From NCBI GenBank assembly GCA_026414575.1, contig JAOAIS010000049.1, forward strand, positions 1 to 51,713: a stretch of 51,713 nt of DNA, given 5' to 3'. Shown here one piece after another: positions 2,816-36,570 of the stretch. Each line of letters begins with the position of its first letter. The stretch's first letter is position 1. The position numbers and the translations under genes are program-made. The notes below the pieces were generated by a model. That model saw only the letters and a list, made by a program, of their open reading frames with translations, made no database searches and had not been told where the DNA came from. The stretch comes from Aquificaceae bacterium (GTDB taxonomy: Bacteria; Aquificota; Aquificia; Aquificales; Aquificaceae).

Positions 2816-4190
2816 GCACTTCAAGGGCTGGGTTGCCAAGGGGCCTAAGCATGCCATTCTTTATGGCTTTTAGCACATTATCTTGTATCTTTCTGTCTTT
2901 GAACTTTATAAAGTGGTGAAAAAGCACACCGCTTGACTCAAGCCCAAGACCCCTGTCTGCAAGCACCTTATCAGCCCAGCCTCTCACCGACTTACTTCTT
3001 GTAAAAAGGTTTCTTGAGTTAATACCCCTTTTCTTTTCAACGCCCACAAACTGATAGCCGCACACATTGCCTTCTTTGAGGAAAACCTTTACAAGCTTGC
3101 CCTCCCACTCAAAGGTAAAGGACTCCTCTGCATCTTCAAAAACGCCTCCACTTCCTGCAGTGACAACCCTTGTCTTTACCGCATTGTAATCCACAAGCCC
3201 GGGGTTTCTTACTTTCAAGCCGGCCATGTTGAACCCCGCTATGGCACCACTTTGCTGAGCCGTTGGAAACAAGGCTATCCAGCGCCAGTTGCCCCAAGCA
3301 TCCAACCCAGAGCATATGTCCCCTGCCGCATAAACATCGGGGTCGGAAGTTTGCTGGTATTCATTTACCAACACCCCGCCCACCACTCTGCCCGTCACCT
3401 CATTTATGTGAATCTTTATATCTGTGTCTGCCACAAGATTCGTCCTTGGTCTAACACCCGTAGAGAGTATAACCATGTCCGCTTTTATGAATTTGCTTTT
3501 GTCCGTGCCGTTGGGTCTTATCTCAACCGCTTCTACCCAACCATCCTCTCCATGTATGGCAACTACCTGATGGTTTAGGTAAAAGTTTATACCCTCTTCC
3601 TCCAAGGGCTTTAAATAGCGGTCCGCCATAAACTTGTCCAGCATTCTGGGAAGAGCCCTGTCAAAGAACTCTACCACATGAACTTCAAGGCCCATGTGTT
3701 TAAAAGTTTCCGCATCCTCTACCCCTATAGGACCAGCTCCAACAATGACAACGCTCCTGATCCTCCCCAACAAAACCCAATCCCTTATTCTTCTTGCATC
3801 GTAAAGATCTTTGGCGGTAGTGACGCCAGAAAGTTCAACCCCTTGTATGGGTGGCACAAAGGCGTAGGCGCCAGCCGCAAGAAGACACTTGTCGTAATAA
3901 ATTTCCTCACCGCCTCTTATGAGCACAACCTTGCGCTTGTTGTCAACGGAAACAACTTCCTTATTTGGTCTGAAGTCTACCTTGTGCCTTTCGTAGAAAG
4001 AATAACCTCCCTTGTAAAAAAGGGCTTCCTCGGATATGTCGCCCCTTATGACATTTTCCATGCAGTTGGGGGCGTAGGTGGGGAATTCCTCCCGAGATAA
4101 AACCACTATTTCCGAATCTGCATCCACTCTCCTGAAGGCTTCTATGGCGCTGGCAGATGCCGGTCCGTTTCCCACTATGACTATGCGCAT
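2805..4190 (-). CDS. FAD-dependent pyridine nucleotide-disulfide oxidoreductase family protein
   Basis: This 461-residue flavoprotein has two Rossmann folds: an N-terminal FAD motif IVGNGPASASA and a central NAD(P)H motif VVIVGAGPIGVE. A second FAD contact, VYAAGDI, follows. A cysteine in the segment YAPNCMENVIRG (about residue 43) occupies the place of the redox-active cysteine of NADH oxidases and CoA-disulfide reductases, although the surrounding sequence differs from the usual SxxxCG. The C-terminal ~130 residues resemble a family dimerisation domain, but I do not recognise them precisely. Substrate is undetermined. A TATAAT box about 10 bases before the ATG suggests an almost leaderless mRNA. 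Confidence 0.8.
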   Translation of the reverse strand: MRIVIVGNGPASASAIEAFRRVDADSEIVVLSREEFPTYAPNCMENVIRGDISEEALFYKGGYSFYERHKVDFRPNKEVVSVDNKRKVVLIRGGEEIYYDKCLLAAGAYAFVPPIQGVELSGVTTAKDLYDARRIRDWVLLGRIRSVVIVGAGPIGVEDAETFKHMGLEVHVVEFFDRALPRMLDKFMADRYLKPLEEEGINFYLNHQVVAIHGEDGWVEAVEIRPNGTDKSKFIKADMVILSTGVRPRTNLVADTDIKIHINEVTGRVVGGVLVNEYQQTSDPDVYAAGDICSGLDAWGNWRWIALFPTAQQSGAIAGFNMAGLKVRNPGLVDYNAVKTRVVTAGSGGVFEDAEESFTFEWEGKLVKVFLKEGNVCGYQFVGVEKKRGINSRNLFTRSKSVRGWADKVLADRGLGLESSGVLFHHFIKFKDRKIQDNVLKAIKNGMLRPLGNPALEVPIF

Positions 4191-4199
4191 AGGTATCTA

Positions 4200-4205
4200 A
4201 TTATA
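4200..4205 (-). promoter_or_regulatory. -10 box of the disulfide-oxidoreductase gene
   Basis: TATAAT on the minus strand ends 10 bases before the ATG at 4190, so transcription would start only about 3 bases before the start codon. No -35 match and no Shine-Dalgarno sequence are visible, which is consistent with a leaderless transcript. Confidence 0.5.
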
Positions 4206-4282
4206 ACCCTTGGTAGGATAAGCACATCAAAAGCCCTACTTTATCCTTAGCTTTGCAAACCAGTTCTAAAGCCTTCAAGAAT

Positions 4283-5740
4283 TTAGGCTCTGTCAATCTT
4301 CATAATGTACTCCAAGCATGTCCTTACACCAAAACCTGTGCCACCCTTGGCATAGTAAGAGAACTCCTCTCTTAGATGTGCTGGCCCCGCTATGTCAAGA
4401 TGCACCCACTTTATGCCTTCACCCACAAACTCCTCAAGGAACATGGCCGCAGTTATGGCACCTCCGTAACGACCACCAGAGTTCAGCACATCGCCTTCGC
4501 CCTTTTTTATCTTTTCCCTTAACCTCTTGTCGTCCATGGGCATCTTCCAAAGTCTCTCACCGGTGAGTTTAGAAAGCCTAAGAAGCTCATCTCCAAACTC
4601 TTCATCGTTGGTAAACAAGCCTGCGGTATACTCACCCAAGGCTACCATGCATGCCCCGGTCAGCGTTGCCATATCAATGATTCTTGAGACCCCTAGGTTG
4701 GAGGCGTAAGATAGGGCGTCCGCAAGTGTCACCCTTCCCTCCGCATCCGTGTTGTCTATTTCTATGGTTTTGCCGTTCATGGCCCTTATGATGTCATCCG
4801 GTCTGTAGGCGGTTCCACTGGGCATATTCTCCGCAGCACCAAAAATACCATGCACCTCCACCTGAGGCCTTAAATCGGCCAGAGCCTTCATTATGCCTAT
4901 TACCGCACAAGCACCCGACTTGTCCATCTTCATGGTTCTCATGTAATCGCCCGTCTTTATGTTAAGCCCCCCACTGTCAAAGGTAAGACCCTTACCCACT
5001 ATGGCAACTTTTGCTTTTGGATCACCCTGAGGTCTGTAGACCATGTGCACAAAGCGTGGCGGTGTAGAAGAGCCCTTACCCACGCTCCAGAGGGCCTGCA
5101 TGCCCATTTCTTGGATCCCCTTTTCATCATAGACCCTACATTCAAGACCGCACTCGTTGGCCACCCTCTGGGCAATCTCTGCAAGGGTTATGGGATTTAT
5201 CACATTCCCTGGCTCGTTTACCAGATTTCTGGTAAAATTCTGGGCTTTTGCAAGGATGCTTCCAAATCTTACGGCGTCCTCGTCCTCTCCGTATATATAA
5301 ACATCCTCTACCCCATGAGCTTCCTCTTCCTTTTTGGTCTTGTAGCGATCAAAGCGATAGCTTCCAAGAATAGCACCTTCTGTAACAGCCTTAAGGGCTC
5401 TAAAGTCAAGCTCTCCAGCATACAGGTATAGACTTTTAACCCTGTCCTTACAAGCTCTCTTTGCCAGAAGGGCAGCGGCAGTCCTGTAGGAGTCCTCCTC
5501 AGCCTTTTCCCTCTTGCCAAGTCCAACAACATAAAAAATCCTTGGCTCCTCGTCTACCAGCAGACAAACTTTGGTAAGGCTTTCTTCTTTGCCTTTGAAA
5601 TTATCTACCGACAAAAGCTTTTCCACCTGTCCCTTTAGGCTACCAAGGAAGCCAAGATTGCTCATATCATCTTCAAAGACAAACACCCCAAGGGGGTCCC
5701 TTACCTCATTAGCCTTGAAATTCAAAGCTTTAACTTCCAT
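4283..5740 (-). CDS. pepA: Leucyl aminopeptidase (M17 family)
   Basis: This is a two-zinc cytosolic exopeptidase that removes N-terminal amino acids. The 485-residue length is typical. The catalytic domain carries the M17 signature NTDAEGRVTLADAL, and the metal and active-site segment KGLTFDSGGLNIKTG holds the catalytic lysine region. A strong GGAGGT precedes the ATG at 5740. The gene follows ilvH by 15 bases and is probably the last gene of the ilvB-ilvH-pepA transcript. Some family members also bind DNA as regulators, but nothing here shows that. Confidence 0.95.
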   Translation of the reverse strand: MEVKALNFKANEVRDPLGVFVFEDDMSNLGFLGSLKGQVEKLLSVDNFKGKEESLTKVCLLVDEEPRIFYVVGLGKREKAEEDSYRTAAALLAKRACKDRVKSLYLYAGELDFRALKAVTEGAILGSYRFDRYKTKKEEEAHGVEDVYIYGEDEDAVRFGSILAKAQNFTRNLVNEPGNVINPITLAEIAQRVANECGLECRVYDEKGIQEMGMQALWSVGKGSSTPPRFVHMVYRPQGDPKAKVAIVGKGLTFDSGGLNIKTGDYMRTMKMDKSGACAVIGIMKALADLRPQVEVHGIFGAAENMPSGTAYRPDDIIRAMNGKTIEIDNTDAEGRVTLADALSYASNLGVSRIIDMATLTGACMVALGEYTAGLFTNDEEFGDELLRLSKLTGERLWKMPMDDKRLREKIKKGEGDVLNSGGRYGGAITAAMFLEEFVGEGIKWVHLDIAGPAHLREEFSYYAKGGTGFGVRTCLEYIMKIDRA

Positions 5741-5755
5741 AGCACACCTCCGGGC

Positions 5756-6331
5756 TTATTCCTCCTCCTGAATAGACCCTTCCCTTTTCATGGCTATTTT
5801 GCCAGTCCTTGCCATCTCCTTTATGCCAAAGGGTCGTACAAGCTCTATAAAAGCCTTTATTTTGTCCTCAGTGCCCGTTATCTCCACAGTGTAGGTTTCT
5901 GACGAGACATCAACAACCTTTGCCCTAAATATCTCCACAAGCCTTAGCACCTCGTCCCTTGCCCTTGGCGTAGCGGTGTGGACCTTTACAAGTGCCAACT
6001 CTCTCTCCACATGGGGTGTGTCTGTTAAGTCTTTTACCTTGAGGGTATCTATGAGTTTTCGGAGTTGTTTGACCACCTGGTCTATGACCACATCGTCGCC
6101 TATCACTTCAAGGGTCATGCGAGATATGCCCTTCTCGTGAGTCTCACCCACCGAAAGACCCTCTATGTTGTAGCCTTTTCCAGCTATCAGGGTTGCAATG
6201 CGCGCAAGCACGCCCAACTCATTGCGTACAGTGAGGTTTATAATGTGCTTGCGCATCTCACCCTTTTTAACTTCCCTGAAAAGAGGAGCCTTTATGGCTT
6301 CTAAACCTCTTGTTCCAACTGTGTCAGCCAT
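5756..6331 (-). CDS. ilvH: Acetolactate synthase small (regulatory) subunit
   Basis: This is the regulatory subunit of acetohydroxyacid synthase, which binds valine and activates the catalytic subunit. The 191-residue protein has an N-terminal ACT domain beginning HIINLTVRNELGVLARI (from about 29), with the typical GYNIEGLSVG effector-site segment, and a C-terminal ALS_ss_C domain. About 28 residues precede the ACT domain, slightly more than usual. Start at 6331 is supported by AAAGGAGG just upstream. It lies 11 bases downstream of ilvB in the same operon. Confidence 0.95.
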   Translation of the reverse strand: MADTVGTRGLEAIKAPLFREVKKGEMRKHIINLTVRNELGVLARIATLIAGKGYNIEGLSVGETHEKGISRMTLEVIGDDVVIDQVVKQLRKLIDTLKVKDLTDTPHVERELALVKVHTATPRARDEVLRLVEIFRAKVVDVSSETYTVEITGTEDKIKAFIELVRPFGIKEMARTGKIAMKREGSIQEEE

Positions 6332-6342
6332 GAAAACCTCCT

Positions 6343-8097
6343 TTATCCTACCAAATACATGGTCTCTGCCTCTACCGACTTTTTGCCATCTTCGAGTATC
6401 ATGTCCCTGTAAGACTTGCCCGCTGGCACCATGGGAAGGACATTTTCCTCCCTATCCACATGAAAGTCCATGATAACAGGCCTATCTTGAATCTTGAGAG
6501 CTTCCTCTATGATTTCTCTCACCTCCGAGGGCTTTTCTGCCCTAAAGCCCGCCGCACCGCAGGCCTCTGCAAGCTTTACAAAGTCTGGCTGAACTGAAAG
6601 GTCCACCTCCGAGTATCTTCTCTCATAAAAGAGCTCCTGCCACTGACGCACCATACCAAGATAGCCGTTGTTTATTATGGCAACCTTGACGGGCACCCTG
6701 TATTGTACCGCAGTTATAAGCTCCTGCATGGTCATCATAAAAGAACCATCACCGTCTATCACAAAAACTTCCCTTTCTGGTCTTCCCAGCTTGGCGCCAA
6801 TGCCCGCAGGAAAACCAAAACCCATAGTTCCAAGACCGCCCGAGTTTATAAACTGCCTTGGAAAGGAGTACTTGTAGAACATAGCAGACCACATTTGGTG
6901 CTGGCCTACACCTGTGGTAATTATTGCCTCGCCTTTTGTAGCCTCGTATATCTGCTCTATCACATACTGGGGCTTTATGATGCTGTTGGACCTTGCGTAA
7001 GTCAAAGGATGCTTTTTTCTCCAGGCTTCTATCTGTTCTATCCATTTTTGTTTTTCTTCTGGATAGAGTGTCTTTGCAACCTCCCTCTTGAGCTCCTCAA
7101 TGATTTTTCTCAGCACTATCCTTACATCTCCTACTATGGGCACATCCACCACTATGTTCTTGGATATAGAAGCTGGGTCTATGTCAATGTGAACTATCTT
7201 TGCTTGAGGTGCAAATTCTTCCACTTTACCCGTTACCCTATCATCAAAGCGGGCACCAACCGCAATAAGAAGGTCGCAGTTATAAACCGCCATGTTGGCG
7301 TAGTAAGTACCGTGCATTCCAAGCATATGAAGGGAAAGGGGATGAAGTTCTGGAAAGGCGCCCTTACCCATGTTGGTGGTGGTAACGGGGATATTCATAA
7401 GCTCTGCCAGCTCAACCAGCTCCTTCTGGGCTTCCGCCTGAACAGCACCGCCACCCACATACATAACGGGTCTTTTTGCCTCAAGTATGAACCTGACCGC
7501 CCTTTTTATCTGCTGTAGGTTACCCTCAAGGTGGGGTCTGTACCCAGGAAGGGACTCCTTTACCTCATCGAAGGTAGGCACGGGAACATCGCTCAGCTTC
7601 TGGGTTATATCCTTTGGTATGTCCACAAGCACAGGACCAGGACGGCCAGTCCTCGCTATGTAGAAAGCCTGGCGCAGTATGAGTGGTAGTTCCTCTATTT
7701 TCTTGACAAGAAAATTATGCTTGGTTATTGCCCTCGTTATGCCTACTATGTCCACTTCCTGAAAAGCATCGTTACCGATAAGATGGGTTGGCACCTGCCC
7801 AGTTATGAAAACCACAGGGACAGAATCCATGTAAGCATCTGCGATGGCGGTCACCAAGTTTGTGGCGCCAGGACCGGAGGTGGACATGGCAACACCAACC
7901 TTTCCCGTTGCTTTGGCATAACCCTCCGCCATGTGGCCTGCACCCTGCTCATGCCTTGCGAGTATATGCTTTATATAACCATCCCTGTAAAGGGCATCGT
8001 AGACCTCCATAATGGCACCACCTGGATGACCAAACACAAGCTCCACTCCTTCTTCTTTCAATGTTTCTATGACAATATCCGCACCCTTTCTCAGCAT
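6343..8097 (-). CDS. ilvB: Acetolactate synthase large (catalytic) subunit
   Basis: This thiamine-diphosphate enzyme condenses two pyruvates to acetolactate, or pyruvate with 2-oxobutyrate, the first common step of branched-chain amino acid synthesis. At 584 residues it has standard length. Visible features are the N-terminal GHPGGAIMEVYDAL with the catalytic-glutamate region RHEQGAGHMAEGYA, and the ThDP motif GDGSFMMT ending at NNGYLGMVRQWQ. GGAGG precedes the ATG. It heads the operon ilvB-ilvH-pepA. A long inverted repeat at 8138-8163 sits over the expected -35 region and could be an operator. Confidence 0.97.
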   Translation of the reverse strand: MLRKGADIVIETLKEEGVELVFGHPGGAIMEVYDALYRDGYIKHILARHEQGAGHMAEGYAKATGKVGVAMSTSGPGATNLVTAIADAYMDSVPVVFITGQVPTHLIGNDAFQEVDIVGITRAITKHNFLVKKIEELPLILRQAFYIARTGRPGPVLVDIPKDITQKLSDVPVPTFDEVKESLPGYRPHLEGNLQQIKRAVRFILEAKRPVMYVGGGAVQAEAQKELVELAELMNIPVTTTNMGKGAFPELHPLSLHMLGMHGTYYANMAVYNCDLLIAVGARFDDRVTGKVEEFAPQAKIVHIDIDPASISKNIVVDVPIVGDVRIVLRKIIEELKREVAKTLYPEEKQKWIEQIEAWRKKHPLTYARSNSIIKPQYVIEQIYEATKGEAIITTGVGQHQMWSAMFYKYSFPRQFINSGGLGTMGFGFPAGIGAKLGRPEREVFVIDGDGSFMMTMQELITAVQYRVPVKVAIINNGYLGMVRQWQELFYERRYSEVDLSVQPDFVKLAEACGAAGFRAEKPSEVREIIEEALKIQDRPVIMDFHVDREENVLPMVPAGKSYRDMILEDGKKSVEAETMYLVG

Positions 8098-32987: not shown

Positions 32988-33320
32988 CTAAAAATCTAGG
33001 TCTATATCCTCATCGTCAAACTCAGGATTCTCATTCGTTTCAAAAACTCCTCTAAGATTTAGGGCAAGCCTTTTAAGGTTCTCAAGGAAAAACACCACAT
33101 CTTCGTAAATCTCCAGAAGGGTCTTGTACCTAACCATGTCCTCGTAGCTAAGCTTTTTTGTTTTCAAAAGCTTCTTTATGGCTATCTTTGAGATAAAGGC
33201 TCTTGAGTACTTTTCCTGCCATTCTTTCCAAAATTCTTGACTGCTTACAGGCGATTTCACTATGAAAAATTCAAGGTTGGACAGCTCCTCTATTAGGTTA
33301 AGGTCAAGGGTGTTTTTCAC
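32988..33320 (-). CDS. Hypothetical protein, acidic C-terminus
   Basis: A 110-residue protein starting at a GTG (33318-33320) with AGGAGGT upstream. It is mostly alpha-helical, lacks cysteines and signal peptide, and ends in a strongly acidic tail (DDEDIDLDF). I do not recognise a family. It sits 20 bases after trpC and 10 bases before pgk, so it is co-transcribed with them. Confidence 0.65.
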   Translation of the reverse strand: MKNTLDLNLIEELSNLEFFIVKSPVSSQEFWKEWQEKYSRAFISKIAIKKLLKTKKLSYEDMVRYKTLLEIYEDVVFFLENLKRLALNLRGVFETNENPEFDDEDIDLDF

Positions 33321-33340: not shown

Positions 33341-34105
33341 TTATAAACCAATAAGTTCTCTTAGTTTTTTAGCTGGGTCTTGGCTTTTCATGAGACTCGT
33401 CCCCACTAAAAAAGCGTCCACGCCGACGCCCTCAAGCCTATCAACTTGCTCCCTATTCTCTATACCACTCTCCGCTATGACAAACTCCGCACCCATGGAC
33501 TTTAGCTCCGGAGCAAGTCTTTCCGAAAGACTCACATCCACCTTGAGAGTGTCCAAATCCCTGTTGTTTATGCCTATTATCCTTGCACCACACTTCAAGG
33601 CTCTCTCCGCCTCCTTTAGGCTAAAGACCTCCGCAATATAAGAAAGACCAAGCTCTTTAGTATACTCGAGCAAATCAGCAAGAAGTGCATCCTCTAATAT
33701 TCTCACTATTAGCAGAACCGCATCTGCGCCGTAGGCCTTTGCCTCAAGAATCTGTACTGGATGTATGATAAAGTCTTTCCTCAGAAGGGGTAGTCCTGTG
33801 CTTTTTCTTACACCAAAAAGGTCCTGAAGGTTACCACCAAAGAATCTTCTATCCGTAAGCACGGATATTGCAACGGCACCAGCCTCTTCATAGAGTTTTG
33901 CCTGCTCTACCGCCGATACATCCCTTATAAAACCCTCGGAGGGTGAAGCCCTCTTGACCTCGGCGATTATCCTTGGACCCTTTGCGGAAAGCGCCTTTTT
34001 GAAAGAATAGGACTCTTCCCTCAGAAAAGCCCTTTCCTCAAGCTCTTTGATATAATCTCTGGAGGTGTTTATTTCACTTCTCTTGTTCTCTAAGATTAGT
34101 TCCAA
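33341..34105 (-). CDS. trpC: Indole-3-glycerol phosphate synthase
   Basis: A 254-residue TIM-barrel enzyme that closes the ring of CdRP to indole-3-glycerol phosphate in tryptophan synthesis. Signatures are IIAEVKRASPSEGFI (catalytic Lys), LLRKDFIIHPVQILEAKAYGADAVLL and the phosphate-binding IAESGIENREQV. The likely start is a TTG at 34105, five bases after the TusA-DUF3343 stop, with AGGGG nearby. No other trp genes are in the window. Confidence 0.95.
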   Translation of the reverse strand: MELILENKRSEINTSRDYIKELEERAFLREESYSFKKALSAKGPRIIAEVKRASPSEGFIRDVSAVEQAKLYEEAGAVAISVLTDRRFFGGNLQDLFGVRKSTGLPLLRKDFIIHPVQILEAKAYGADAVLLIVRILEDALLADLLEYTKELGLSYIAEVFSLKEAERALKCGARIIGINNRDLDTLKVDVSLSERLAPELKSMGAEFVIAESGIENREQVDRLEGVGVDAFLVGTSLMKSQDPAKKLRELIGL

Positions 34106-34110
34106 AACCC

Positions 34111-34698
34111 CTATGGATAAACCCTCCTGTATTCTTTGCCTTCCTTCCTGTATATGGCTTCAACGCCAAAATCTTCCCTCTTTAACTCATCGTATATTTT
34201 CTTTGCGCTTTCATAGCCATGCACCGCAAGCACAACCCCGCATCTTGGGTCTATCTCGTCGGGTATGGGTATGAGCTTCGCCCTACCCCTAAGGTGCCTT
34301 TCGGCCCTCGTGCCTTCTGAAATAGCCACAAAGGTGATGAAGTGATCCGGTTTTTTTATAAAAGGGTTTATGCTCATAAGATACTGCCTTATGTGAAGTT
34401 TTACTCCAAGGGCATGGAACCTTATCCAATACCAAAGATTTGCCTCCACGGCACCAGACCCCTTCCTAAGAAGTGCCACCACCTTACCATCCTCCCTTTT
34501 TAGGCTTACCAACTCGTTCCCAGTCTGGGCACACCAACTGTAAACATCTCTCTCAAAACCTGGGTCTGTAGATATTACCCTCAGAGTTTGCCCCTCTTTT
34601 AATTTTTTCATCTTCTCAGAGGTTATTACCAAGGGTAGGGGACAAACAAGTCCTGTGAGGTCAATGGCCTCTTCCTTAAGTTCTTCTAATGCCTTCAT
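34111..34698 (-). CDS. TusA-like sulfur carrier fused to a DUF3343 domain
   Basis: A 195-residue two-domain protein. Residues 11-80 are a TusA/SirA domain with the sulfur-carrying cysteine in LTGLVCPLP (Cys19). Residues 120-190 match the DUF3343 pattern of putative sulfur/selenium carriers: an ITFVAISEGTRAE strand, then LIPIPDEIDPRCGVVL with Cys153. A linker of about 35 residues (81-117) with an aromatic-rich segment, NLWYWIRFHALGV, connects them. Separate TusA and DUF3343 proteins occur in sulfur and selenium metabolism. The fusion implies persulfide passing between Cys19 and Cys153, with the extra Cys56 as a possible partner. It precedes trpC. Confidence 0.82.
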   Translation of the reverse strand: MKALEELKEEAIDLTGLVCPLPLVITSEKMKKLKEGQTLRVISTDPGFERDVYSWCAQTGNELVSLKREDGKVVALLRKGSGAVEANLWYWIRFHALGVKLHIRQYLMSINPFIKKPDHFITFVAISEGTRAERHLRGRAKLIPIPDEIDPRCGVVLAVHGYESAKKIYDELKREDFGVEAIYRKEGKEYRRVYP

Positions 34699-34707
34699 GA
34701 CAGCACC

Positions 34708-35559
34708 TCACACTGCAATTACTTTGGCCTGAGGTTTTTCCTCAAAGCCTTCAATGTATAAATTTATAAGCTTTCCTGCCCTTTCAAGGTTTTTCAAAAA
34801 CTCCTTGTCGTAAAGCTCCAGCGGATTATTAAGGTAGAAAATAACGCTGGCTTCGCCCCTTTGGAGTCTCACGGGCACATGAAAACTGCATGTTTTCCTG
34901 TCTAGCATAGCTTCTTTGAAAAGGTTTCCCTGCATGGGTCTTATACTTATGGACTTTAGATTGAACACCCCCTTCAGGTCTTTGAGATATTCCTCAAGGC
35001 TATTACTCTTCTGGAGTATGTCAAGAATGGCACCTGTCATCTCAAGGTGGGACAAGCTTTTTTCAATCTTGCCGTAATCTGACATAAGGTTTGAGTAAGA
35101 CTTTCTGAGGTTTCTTATGTAGAACCTCTCCTTTCTCAAAGCCTCCACAAGGTCGGGATGCAGAGAAGAAAGAAAAAGTGCCACCATGACCGGTAGCAAC
35201 GCAAGCCCCCACTTGCCGTAGTAGTAAAAGCCAAAACCTACGGAAAACCAGAAAAAAAGCATGCCTTCAAATATTTTTCTGCTGGTGTAGAGGGCGACGG
35301 GTGGCAAGAGGGCAAAAACCGCTTCCTTTTGCCCCGATAAAAGCACTAGAGCTGGCACAAAGATAAGGTCTCCATAACTTTTAAAAAGCCTTACTTGCCC
35401 CGGATACAGAAAAAGGTATACACTAAGGGAAAGATAGAGGACAGAAGGAATGATTATAAGAGCCTTGTGGGTATAAGGTTTGCCCATGGAAAGGGCGACA
35501 AAAAAGACAAAAAGTAGAACTCTGTAACCGAGGAAGATAAGGTTTATATCTCTAAGCAC
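34708..35559 (-). CDS. Membrane protein with coiled coil and GAF-like C-terminus
   Basis: A 283-residue protein starting at a GTG (35557-35559). About five membrane helices occupy residues 5-130, then a coiled coil (about 135-170) and a soluble alpha/beta domain of about 110 residues that looks GAF-like (SFHVPVRLQRGEASVIFYLNNP). The layout is that of a membrane sensor lacking an output domain, so it may signal through partners. I do not recognise a named family. Confidence 0.65.
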   Translation of the reverse strand: MLRDINLIFLGYRVLLFVFFVALSMGKPYTHKALIIIPSVLYLSLSVYLFLYPGQVRLFKSYGDLIFVPALVLLSGQKEAVFALLPPVALYTSRKIFEGMLFFWFSVGFGFYYYGKWGLALLPVMVALFLSSLHPDLVEALRKERFYIRNLRKSYSNLMSDYGKIEKSLSHLEMTGAILDILQKSNSLEEYLKDLKGVFNLKSISIRPMQGNLFKEAMLDRKTCSFHVPVRLQRGEASVIFYLNNPLELYDKEFLKNLERAGKLINLYIEGFEEKPQAKVIAV

Positions 35560-35568
35560 AGGAATATT

Positions 35569-35826
35569 TTACTCCACATCTATCTTTTTAACCCTTTCTT
35601 TGGGTTTGGCCCTTTCCATCTTCTGCTCCAGTTTGCCCACCTCATAATCCACAAGGGTCTTTAGTATCCTCCAGAAAGATAGCTCTATAGTATAAAGGTT
35701 TTTGAGAACCTCTCTCCTTACCTCCTTTGGTGGCAGGAAAAGCTCCAAAAGCCTAAACACCTCCATCCTCATGCGTTCCACTTCTTCCTCAATATTTTCC
35801 TGTCTGTGCTTTTCCTCCTGCTCCAT
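35569..35826 (-). CDS. Small hypothetical helical protein
   Basis: An 85-residue, highly charged helical protein (EEKHRQENIEEEVERMRMEV at the start, KPKERVKKIDVE at the end). It has no signal, cysteine or recognisable domain. It lies 15 bases downstream of pdxJ and 9 bases before the GAF-like membrane gene, so it belongs to their transcript. Possibly a partner of that membrane protein. Confidence 0.6.
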   Translation of the reverse strand: MEQEEKHRQENIEEEVERMRMEVFRLLELFLPPKEVRREVLKNLYTIELSFWRILKTLVDYEVGKLEQKMERAKPKERVKKIDVE

Positions 35827-35841
35827 CGGATTTAAATATAT

Positions 35842-36570
35842 TTAAATTGCCATTAACTTCAAGAACTCCTTGACTGCCCTCTCCAAACCCCAAATAACCG
35901 CGTTTGATACGATGGAGTGCCCCACATTTAGCTCCTCCACCACATCCTTCAGAGCTTCCACCAACATGGAAGTGTTTTTGTAGTTAAGGCCGTGTCCCGC
36001 ATAGACCCTAAGCCCTAAAGACTTAGCCTCCTCACCGGCTACCCTCAGTCTTAAAAGCTCTTCCTCCGCTTCTTTAATAAGATGCCTGTTAAAGAGGTTC
36101 GCATACCTGCCTGTATGGAGCTCCACCGCATCCGCACCCACCTCCTTGCTTGCATGCACCTGAGCCTTTTCTGGTTCCACAAAGAGGGACACCTCTATAC
36201 CCGAATCCCTAATATCTATCAGATAAAGTCTTAAAAAATCCTTTAGCTTCACCACATCAAGACCACCCTCCGTCGTTATTTCCTCCCTCCTTTCTGGCAC
36301 AAGTGTTACTCTGTTGGGCTTTATTCGGAGAGCTATTTTCTTCATCTCTTCCGTTGGAGCCATCTCAAGATTTATAGGCACATGGACCACCTTTCTTATG
36401 AGCTCCAAGTCCTCATCTTGAATGTGTCTTCTGTCCTCCCTGAGGTGTAGGGTTATTTGATGTGCGCCCGCCTGCTGGGCTATAAGGGCAGAATACACAG
36501 GGCTTGGCTCAAAAGTTCTTCTTGCCTGACGGAGAGTCGCCACGTGGTCTATGTTTACACCCAGCCTCAT
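35842..36570 (-). CDS. pdxJ: Pyridoxine 5'-phosphate synthase
   Basis: A 242-residue TIM-barrel enzyme that condenses 1-deoxyxylulose-5-phosphate with the PdxA product to form pyridoxine 5'-phosphate. The signature N-terminus LGVNIDHVATLRQARR is present, with ITLHLREDRRHIQDED and the C-terminal LNVGHSIVSNAVIWGLE. With pdxA in the same window, the two final steps of the DXP-dependent route are covered. TATAAT lies about 10 bases before the ATG, so the mRNA is nearly leaderless. Confidence 0.97.
   Translation of the reverse strand: MRLGVNIDHVATLRQARRTFEPSPVYSALIAQQAGAHQITLHLREDRRHIQDEDLELIRKVVHVPINLEMAPTEEMKKIALRIKPNRVTLVPERREEITTEGGLDVVKLKDFLRLYLIDIRDSGIEVSLFVEPEKAQVHASKEVGADAVELHTGRYANLFNRHLIKEAEEELLRLRVAGEEAKSLGLRVYAGHGLNYKNTSMLVEALKDVVEELNVGHSIVSNAVIWGLERAVKEFLKLMAI

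Follow-up and report, generated by a model that had tools for sequence, protein, structure and literature searches.

A conserved TusA-DUF3343 fusion protein in the Aquificota and its plausible role as a sulfur carrier

Results

The window, by which we mean the whole 51,713-nucleotide stretch of Aquificaceae DNA that was analysed, contains an open reading frame at 34111..34698 on the minus strand that encodes a TusA-DUF3343 fusion protein of 195 aa. The first-pass annotation had located this frame at exactly this position and gave no strand; the open frame, its translation and same-genus orthologues all support it. All of the features described below are also on the minus strand. The TusA domain spans residues 11-79 (34462..34668; PF01206, 5.9e-23), whereas the DUF3343 domain, which Pfam currently names Se_S_carrier, spans residues 119-184 (34147..34344; PF11823, 5.4e-11; model pLDDT about 90-98). 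Both domain identities proposed earlier hold against the curated Pfam cut-offs, as the TusA half scored 80.9 bits to PF01206 (cut-off 28.6) and the DUF3343 half scored 42.3 bits to PF11823 (cut-off 25). The PF11823 match was retained when the C-terminal part of the fusion was scanned alone, and it covers nearly all of the segment that had been assigned to DUF3343 (residues 120-190). The two cysteines singled out in the annotation are the CPxP cysteine of TusA (Cys19, codon 34642..34644) and the family cysteine of DUF3343 (Cys153, codon 34240..34242). Twelve same-genus orthologues were 72-81% identical over essentially the full length, which places the fusion far beyond chance.

Three families of the order carry the fusion. 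We refer to these as f1, which includes loci labelled Thermocrinis, Hydrogenobacter and Aquificaceae, f2 and f3, and to the sister family Desulfurobacteriaceae, with loci so labelled, as f5. In the window the gene belongs to a closely spaced series, pdxJ - 85 aa - 283 aa - fusion - trpC - 110 aa - pgk, that is partly kept in other f1 genomes. trpC (33341..34105; PF00218, 7.9e-79) is the next gene downstream, with a gap of 5 bp, and a gene for a 283-aa protein with a hydrophobic N-terminal half (34708..35559) lies 9 bp upstream. Thus, of the two neighbours named previously, trpC is adjacent but pdxJ (35842..36570; PF03740, 3.8e-92) is three genes upstream, separated from the fusion by the 283-aa gene and a gene for an 85-aa protein (35569..35826). 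The 283-aa and 85-aa proteins and a 110-aa protein (32988-33320), none with a Pfam family, are found again near the fusion in several Aquificaceae, and in several of these the 283-aa gene is conserved upstream of it.

The surroundings vary by family. In f2 the fusion follows miaA-hfq-hflX-HIT, and in f5 the stand-alone DUF3343 gene lies mostly between cstA and a gpsA-like gene, the latter named by sequence inspection. Because the neighbouring genes have housekeeping roles and vary from family to family, context does not name the acceptor; the annotation was right that function is not evident from these genes, which are not sulfur genes. The genome of the window also has a separate TusA gene beside an IscU-like and a ThiI/MnmA-like gene (locus L097) and another beside DsrE-like genes (locus L098), so the fusion is the third, distinct TusA of this genome.

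A search of 136 genomes of the phylum found the full-length fusion, in single copy, in about 100 of the 112 genomes of f1, f2 and f3, including 34 of the 41 genomes of f2; the genomes of these families without it were mostly incomplete drafts. Within the order it is an old housekeeping gene, nearly universal and present in one copy. The DUF3343 proteins of f5 are unfused and 109-133 aa long. A tree of the common helix and DUF3343 region set the unfused f5 proteins apart from all fused proteins (support 100/100), a separation that fits a single origin of the fusion, and recovered f1 (100/97) and f3 (99/93), with long f3 and f5 branches that make exact placement less sure. Genus g5 of f1 (loci L069 and L070) nested inside f2 (99/95), suggesting that its fusion may have been acquired by horizontal transfer. 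An apparent TusA overlapping DUF3343 at locus L181 was rejected as an artefact of the ORF start.

We also searched outside the Aquificota. Of 255 genomes sampled from other phyla, 41 had PF11823; among the matches listed, the open frames were mostly 70-175 aa, i.e. stand-alone, and none was a fusion. A profile built from the fusion alignment was run over three other phyla, with 24, 9 and 389 genomes (422 in total), and each of the matches listed covered a single half of the protein. A scan of assembled contigs returned 32 loci, all from Aquificota except one labelled Acidobacteria; this record is probably the same contig as one of the same-genus genome G040 and so mislabelled. As the contig scan relied on a pair of short peptide patterns, the PF11823 and profile searches carry more weight for absence elsewhere. 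Two queries found no relative in viral contigs, plasmids yielded matches to TusA halves and none to DUF3343, and a search of defence systems gave no match. No paper joining TusA and DUF3343 was found in the open-licence literature, a scope that leaves out subscription journals. Within the limits of sampling, the fusion looks confined to the Aquificota, which bears out the rarity claimed for it. These data confirm that a fusion of two known sulfur-carrier families is real, conserved and, within this sampling, restricted to the phylum.

Residues 88-110 (34369..34437) had been described as an aromatic linker. Instead, they form a confident helix in the predicted model of the fusion (pLDDT 90.2 overall, with a pTM of 0.67 that leaves the relative placement of the domains unsure). 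The helix carries the motif FxxxG[VI][KR]LH and is one of the best-conserved stretches of the chain, with F94, G98, L101 and H102 identical in all 61 aligned fusions. In the 17 unfused f5 proteins the G, L and H of the motif are constant and the F is found in 16. By inspection, the motif is missing from 37 DUF3343 proteins from outside the Aquificota. Since it is already present in the unfused f5 proteins the helix is not a fusion linker; judged from these sequences, it belonged to the DUF3343 protein before the fusion arose and is specific to the phylum.

The TusA half of the model superposes on IscS-bound E. coli TusA (3lvj_C) with an rmsd of 1.0 over 71 columns and a TM score of 0.88 on the target. 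In E. coli TusA, helices alpha1 and alpha2 contact IscS, Met24, Arg27, Arg31 and Phe58 are needed for IscS binding, and Asp45 and Asp51 are described as near Cys19 (PMC2854127). The corresponding IscS-binding positions in the window protein are Val24, Ser27, Lys31 and Gln58, which departs from the E. coli docking set, and Ser27 is invariant in the fusions, those of f3 included. These changes, together with the invariant serine, argue that docking on IscS, if any, would differ from that of E. coli TusA, or that this surface may pack within the protein. The DUF3343 half modelled alone gave a pLDDT of 91.7 and a pTM of 0.80, and a fold search of this half against the PDB returned no significant match (best E 0.06).

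Conservation of the two cysteines was followed in an alignment of 61 fusions, 56 from f1 and f2 and five from f3, together with the 17 unfused f5 proteins. Cys153-Gly154 is identical in all 61 fusions, and the cysteine is present in 16 of the 17 unfused proteins. A stand-alone DUF3343 protein from an f5 species (genome G122, L085:6647-6976) has Trp in place of this otherwise constant cysteine (KGWGVG). Cys19 and the CPxP motif that it opens (C19-P-x-P22) are present in 56/56 fusions of f1 and f2, as is Asp51, and Asp45 is present in 55/56. In all five f3 fusions the motif is lost, Cys19 being replaced by F, Y or P, Asp51 is deleted and Asp45 is lost. The f3 proteins retain the motif of the helix and, in TusA, Ser27, Trp55 and Asn61, and score near or below the PF11823 cut-off. 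Both cysteines of the proposed relay are therefore fixed in f1 and f2, but the two-cysteine arrangement is not obligatory, since the f3 fusion does without Cys19 and Asp51 while keeping Cys153.

NifS/IscS-type cysteine desulfurases showed a two-peaked score distribution across the genomes of the phylum. A strong match (E below 1e-65) was found in 61/64 genomes of f1 and 40/41 of f2, and in 0/7 genomes of f3, 0/2 of family f4 and 0/22 of f5, where no match was better than about 1e-13. No such enzyme was thus found in any of these 31 genomes. The EF2568-type desulfurase, a partner of DUF3343 elsewhere, was above cut-off in no Aquificota genome, which leaves the NifS/IscS-type enzyme as the presumed donor in the phylum. 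The seven f3 genomes gave no TusA match whatsoever at the search threshold, and f3 has no recognisable TusA besides the fusion. Each f5 genome had one TusA match, whose open frame is about 200 aa long, and the one such frame tested was YedF (TIGR03527, 216 bits; cut-off 110). Cys19 is thus kept together with the desulfurase and lost in f3, which has the fusion but no such enzyme, whereas Cys153 is constant, which supports a desulfurase-fed TusA half; this match consists of one loss in one lineage, a single evolutionary event of limited statistical weight.

Of 37 DUF3343 loci from other phyla, 26 have a class-V cysteine desulfurase on the same strand and no more than about 1.7 kb away, 15 have TusA or YedF nearby, and SelD and YedE also recur. 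Unlike this usual setting, no adjacent cysteine desulfurase or YedF was seen in the window or in the contexts of f2, f3 and f5. We also found DUF3343 in other fusions. At locus L148, from another phylum, it is joined to a NifS-type desulfurase (4087-5487) and followed by mnmA (5501-6598; 451 bits to PRK00143.1), an arrangement hinting that DUF3343 can serve tRNA 2-thiolation. At L149:2872-4134 it is fused to the N-terminal end of SelD, and the genes upstream include a cysteine desulfurase and a DsrE/YedF-like gene. Both fusions point to a hand-over of sulfur or selenium by DUF3343. In the open-licence literature its role appears only as a genomic prediction of selenium trafficking with possible use of sulfur (PMC5322559), and neither a solved relative nor an assay was found there.

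Discussion

Our model is that the fusion is a two-domain persulfide carrier in which sulfur would pass from a desulfurase to Cys19 of TusA, then to Cys153 of DUF3343 and on to an acceptor; we put the chances of this scheme at about even. The TusA half would be loaded with persulfide sulfur at Cys19, most probably by the IscS/NifS-type desulfurase of the genome. The sulfur would then be handed to Cys153 of the DUF3343 half, within one molecule or between molecules, and DUF3343 together with the FxxxG[VI][KR]LH helix would deliver it to the acceptor, plausibly a thiolation enzyme. Persulfidation, the direction of flow, direct transfer from cysteine to cysteine and the acceptor are all steps that we infer. 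The relay envisaged in the first-pass annotation is plausible but must be restated, with TusA probably the desulfurase-facing input and Cys153 of DUF3343 probably the constant working site. Support for the carrier model comes from the Pfam matches, the constancy of Cys19 and Asp51 in f1 and f2, the presence of a desulfurase in those families and its absence from f3-f5, the occurrence of DUF3343 near desulfurases and TusA/YedF elsewhere, the NifS and SelD fusions, and the superposition on 3lvj. It is weakened by the single f3 event, the altered IscS-binding residues, the absence of an adjacent desulfurase gene in the window, neighbours that vary by family and have no link to sulfur, and the pTM of 0.67.

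It is possible, although we rate it distinctly below an even chance, that the TusA half serves mainly for docking or as a structural element. The working site would then be Cys153 with the helix, loaded directly by the donor (a desulfurase, or sulfide where there is none), and Cys19 would be accessory at most. This would account for f3, which keeps the fusion, the helix motif, Cys153, Ser27, Trp55 and Asn61 and loses Cys19, Asp45 and Asp51; Ser27 and Trp55 are on alpha1 and alpha2, the helices that contact IscS in E. coli (PMC2854127), and could pack against the protein's own helix. It is also consistent with f5, in which DUF3343 is alone and the NifS/IscS enzyme absent, and with L148, in which DUF3343 is joined straight to a desulfurase without TusA. 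Against it, Cys19, Asp51 and Pro22 are constant in the 56 fusions of f1 and f2 despite TusA halves that share only about 37% identity from one family to the other, which argues for a chemical role there. An unlikely alternative in our view is a dedicated role in one pathway, for example tRNA thiolation by MnmA, with the fusion as a one-piece substitute for the TusA-TusBCD-TusE relay of E. coli. The L148 fusion directly before mnmA and the place of the f2 gene in the miaA-hfq-hflX-HIT string would suit such a role, but that neighbourhood is limited to f2, and the TusA genes at L097 and L098 are better candidates in the genome of the window.

The annotation had left the cargo as sulfur or selenium, and a selenium carrier feeding SelD would agree with the published prediction for DUF3343 (PMC5322559), with the DUF3343-SelD fusion at L149 and with the presence of a SelD gene with an in-frame TGA in the window's own genome. 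SelD was above cut-off in 57 of the 136 genomes, comprising 21/22 in f5 and about 36/64 in f1, and in 0/41 genomes of f2 and 0/7 of f3. As the fusion is kept in f2 and f3 without SelD, selenium is not its general cargo. Moreover, in f5 SelD is nearly universal, yet DUF3343 is unfused and the only TusA lies in a frame of YedF length. On this distribution we rejected a general selenium role, a reading that is largely refuted and that we consider very improbable; the cargo is probably sulfur, a role backed by the neighbours and fusions of DUF3343 elsewhere. The SelD gene of the window's genome (G000:C11:22402-23304, L111 region), like most SelD genes of the phylum, has one in-frame TGA, a probable selenocysteine codon.

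One possible history, which we rate below an even chance, is that DUF3343 with its helix is a sulfur carrier in its own right, with or without a desulfurase, to which TusA was fused as an input port in the ancestor of the Aquificales, its chemistry being switched off later in the lineage without a desulfurase. On this history, the fusion would define a direction of transfer, from desulfurase to TusA to DUF3343, and would make DUF3343 the delivery step. DUF3343 is widespread, and an order of transfer that can be tested follows from the fusion, its natural form without Cys19 and the fusions to NifS and SelD; together these also separate a sulfur role of DUF3343 from a selenium role. The protein is small, probably soluble and heat-stable, and would suit persulfide assays and crystallography.

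The fusion shares with E. coli TusA/YhhP (PF01206) the fold, the CPxP cysteine, Asp45 and Asp51. It differs from that protein in the added DUF3343 domain and in having Ser27 and Gln58 where E. coli has Arg27 and Phe58, and it scores below the cut-off of the NCBIfam TusA equivalog (50.8 vs 78 bits). YedF (TIGR03527) is likewise a two-domain protein of roughly 200 aa with an N-terminal TusA, but its second domain is DsrE-like rather than DUF3343, and the fusion scored 20.3 bits to TIGR03527, over the N-terminal part only and far below the cut-off of 110, which places it outside YedF. The DUF3343-NifS (L148) and DUF3343-SelD (L149) proteins also join DUF3343 to a sulfur or selenium protein in one chain; in these, however, DUF3343 is N-terminal and is joined to an enzyme instead of a carrier. 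Finally, the fusion resembles other PF11823 proteins in having the domain above cut-off and the family cysteine followed by Gly. It differs in having PxPxEIxxxCG in place of the usual PxPREISSxCG, and in that its domain is preceded by the FxxxG[VI][KR]LH helix, which was not seen in the 37 proteins from outside the Aquificota.
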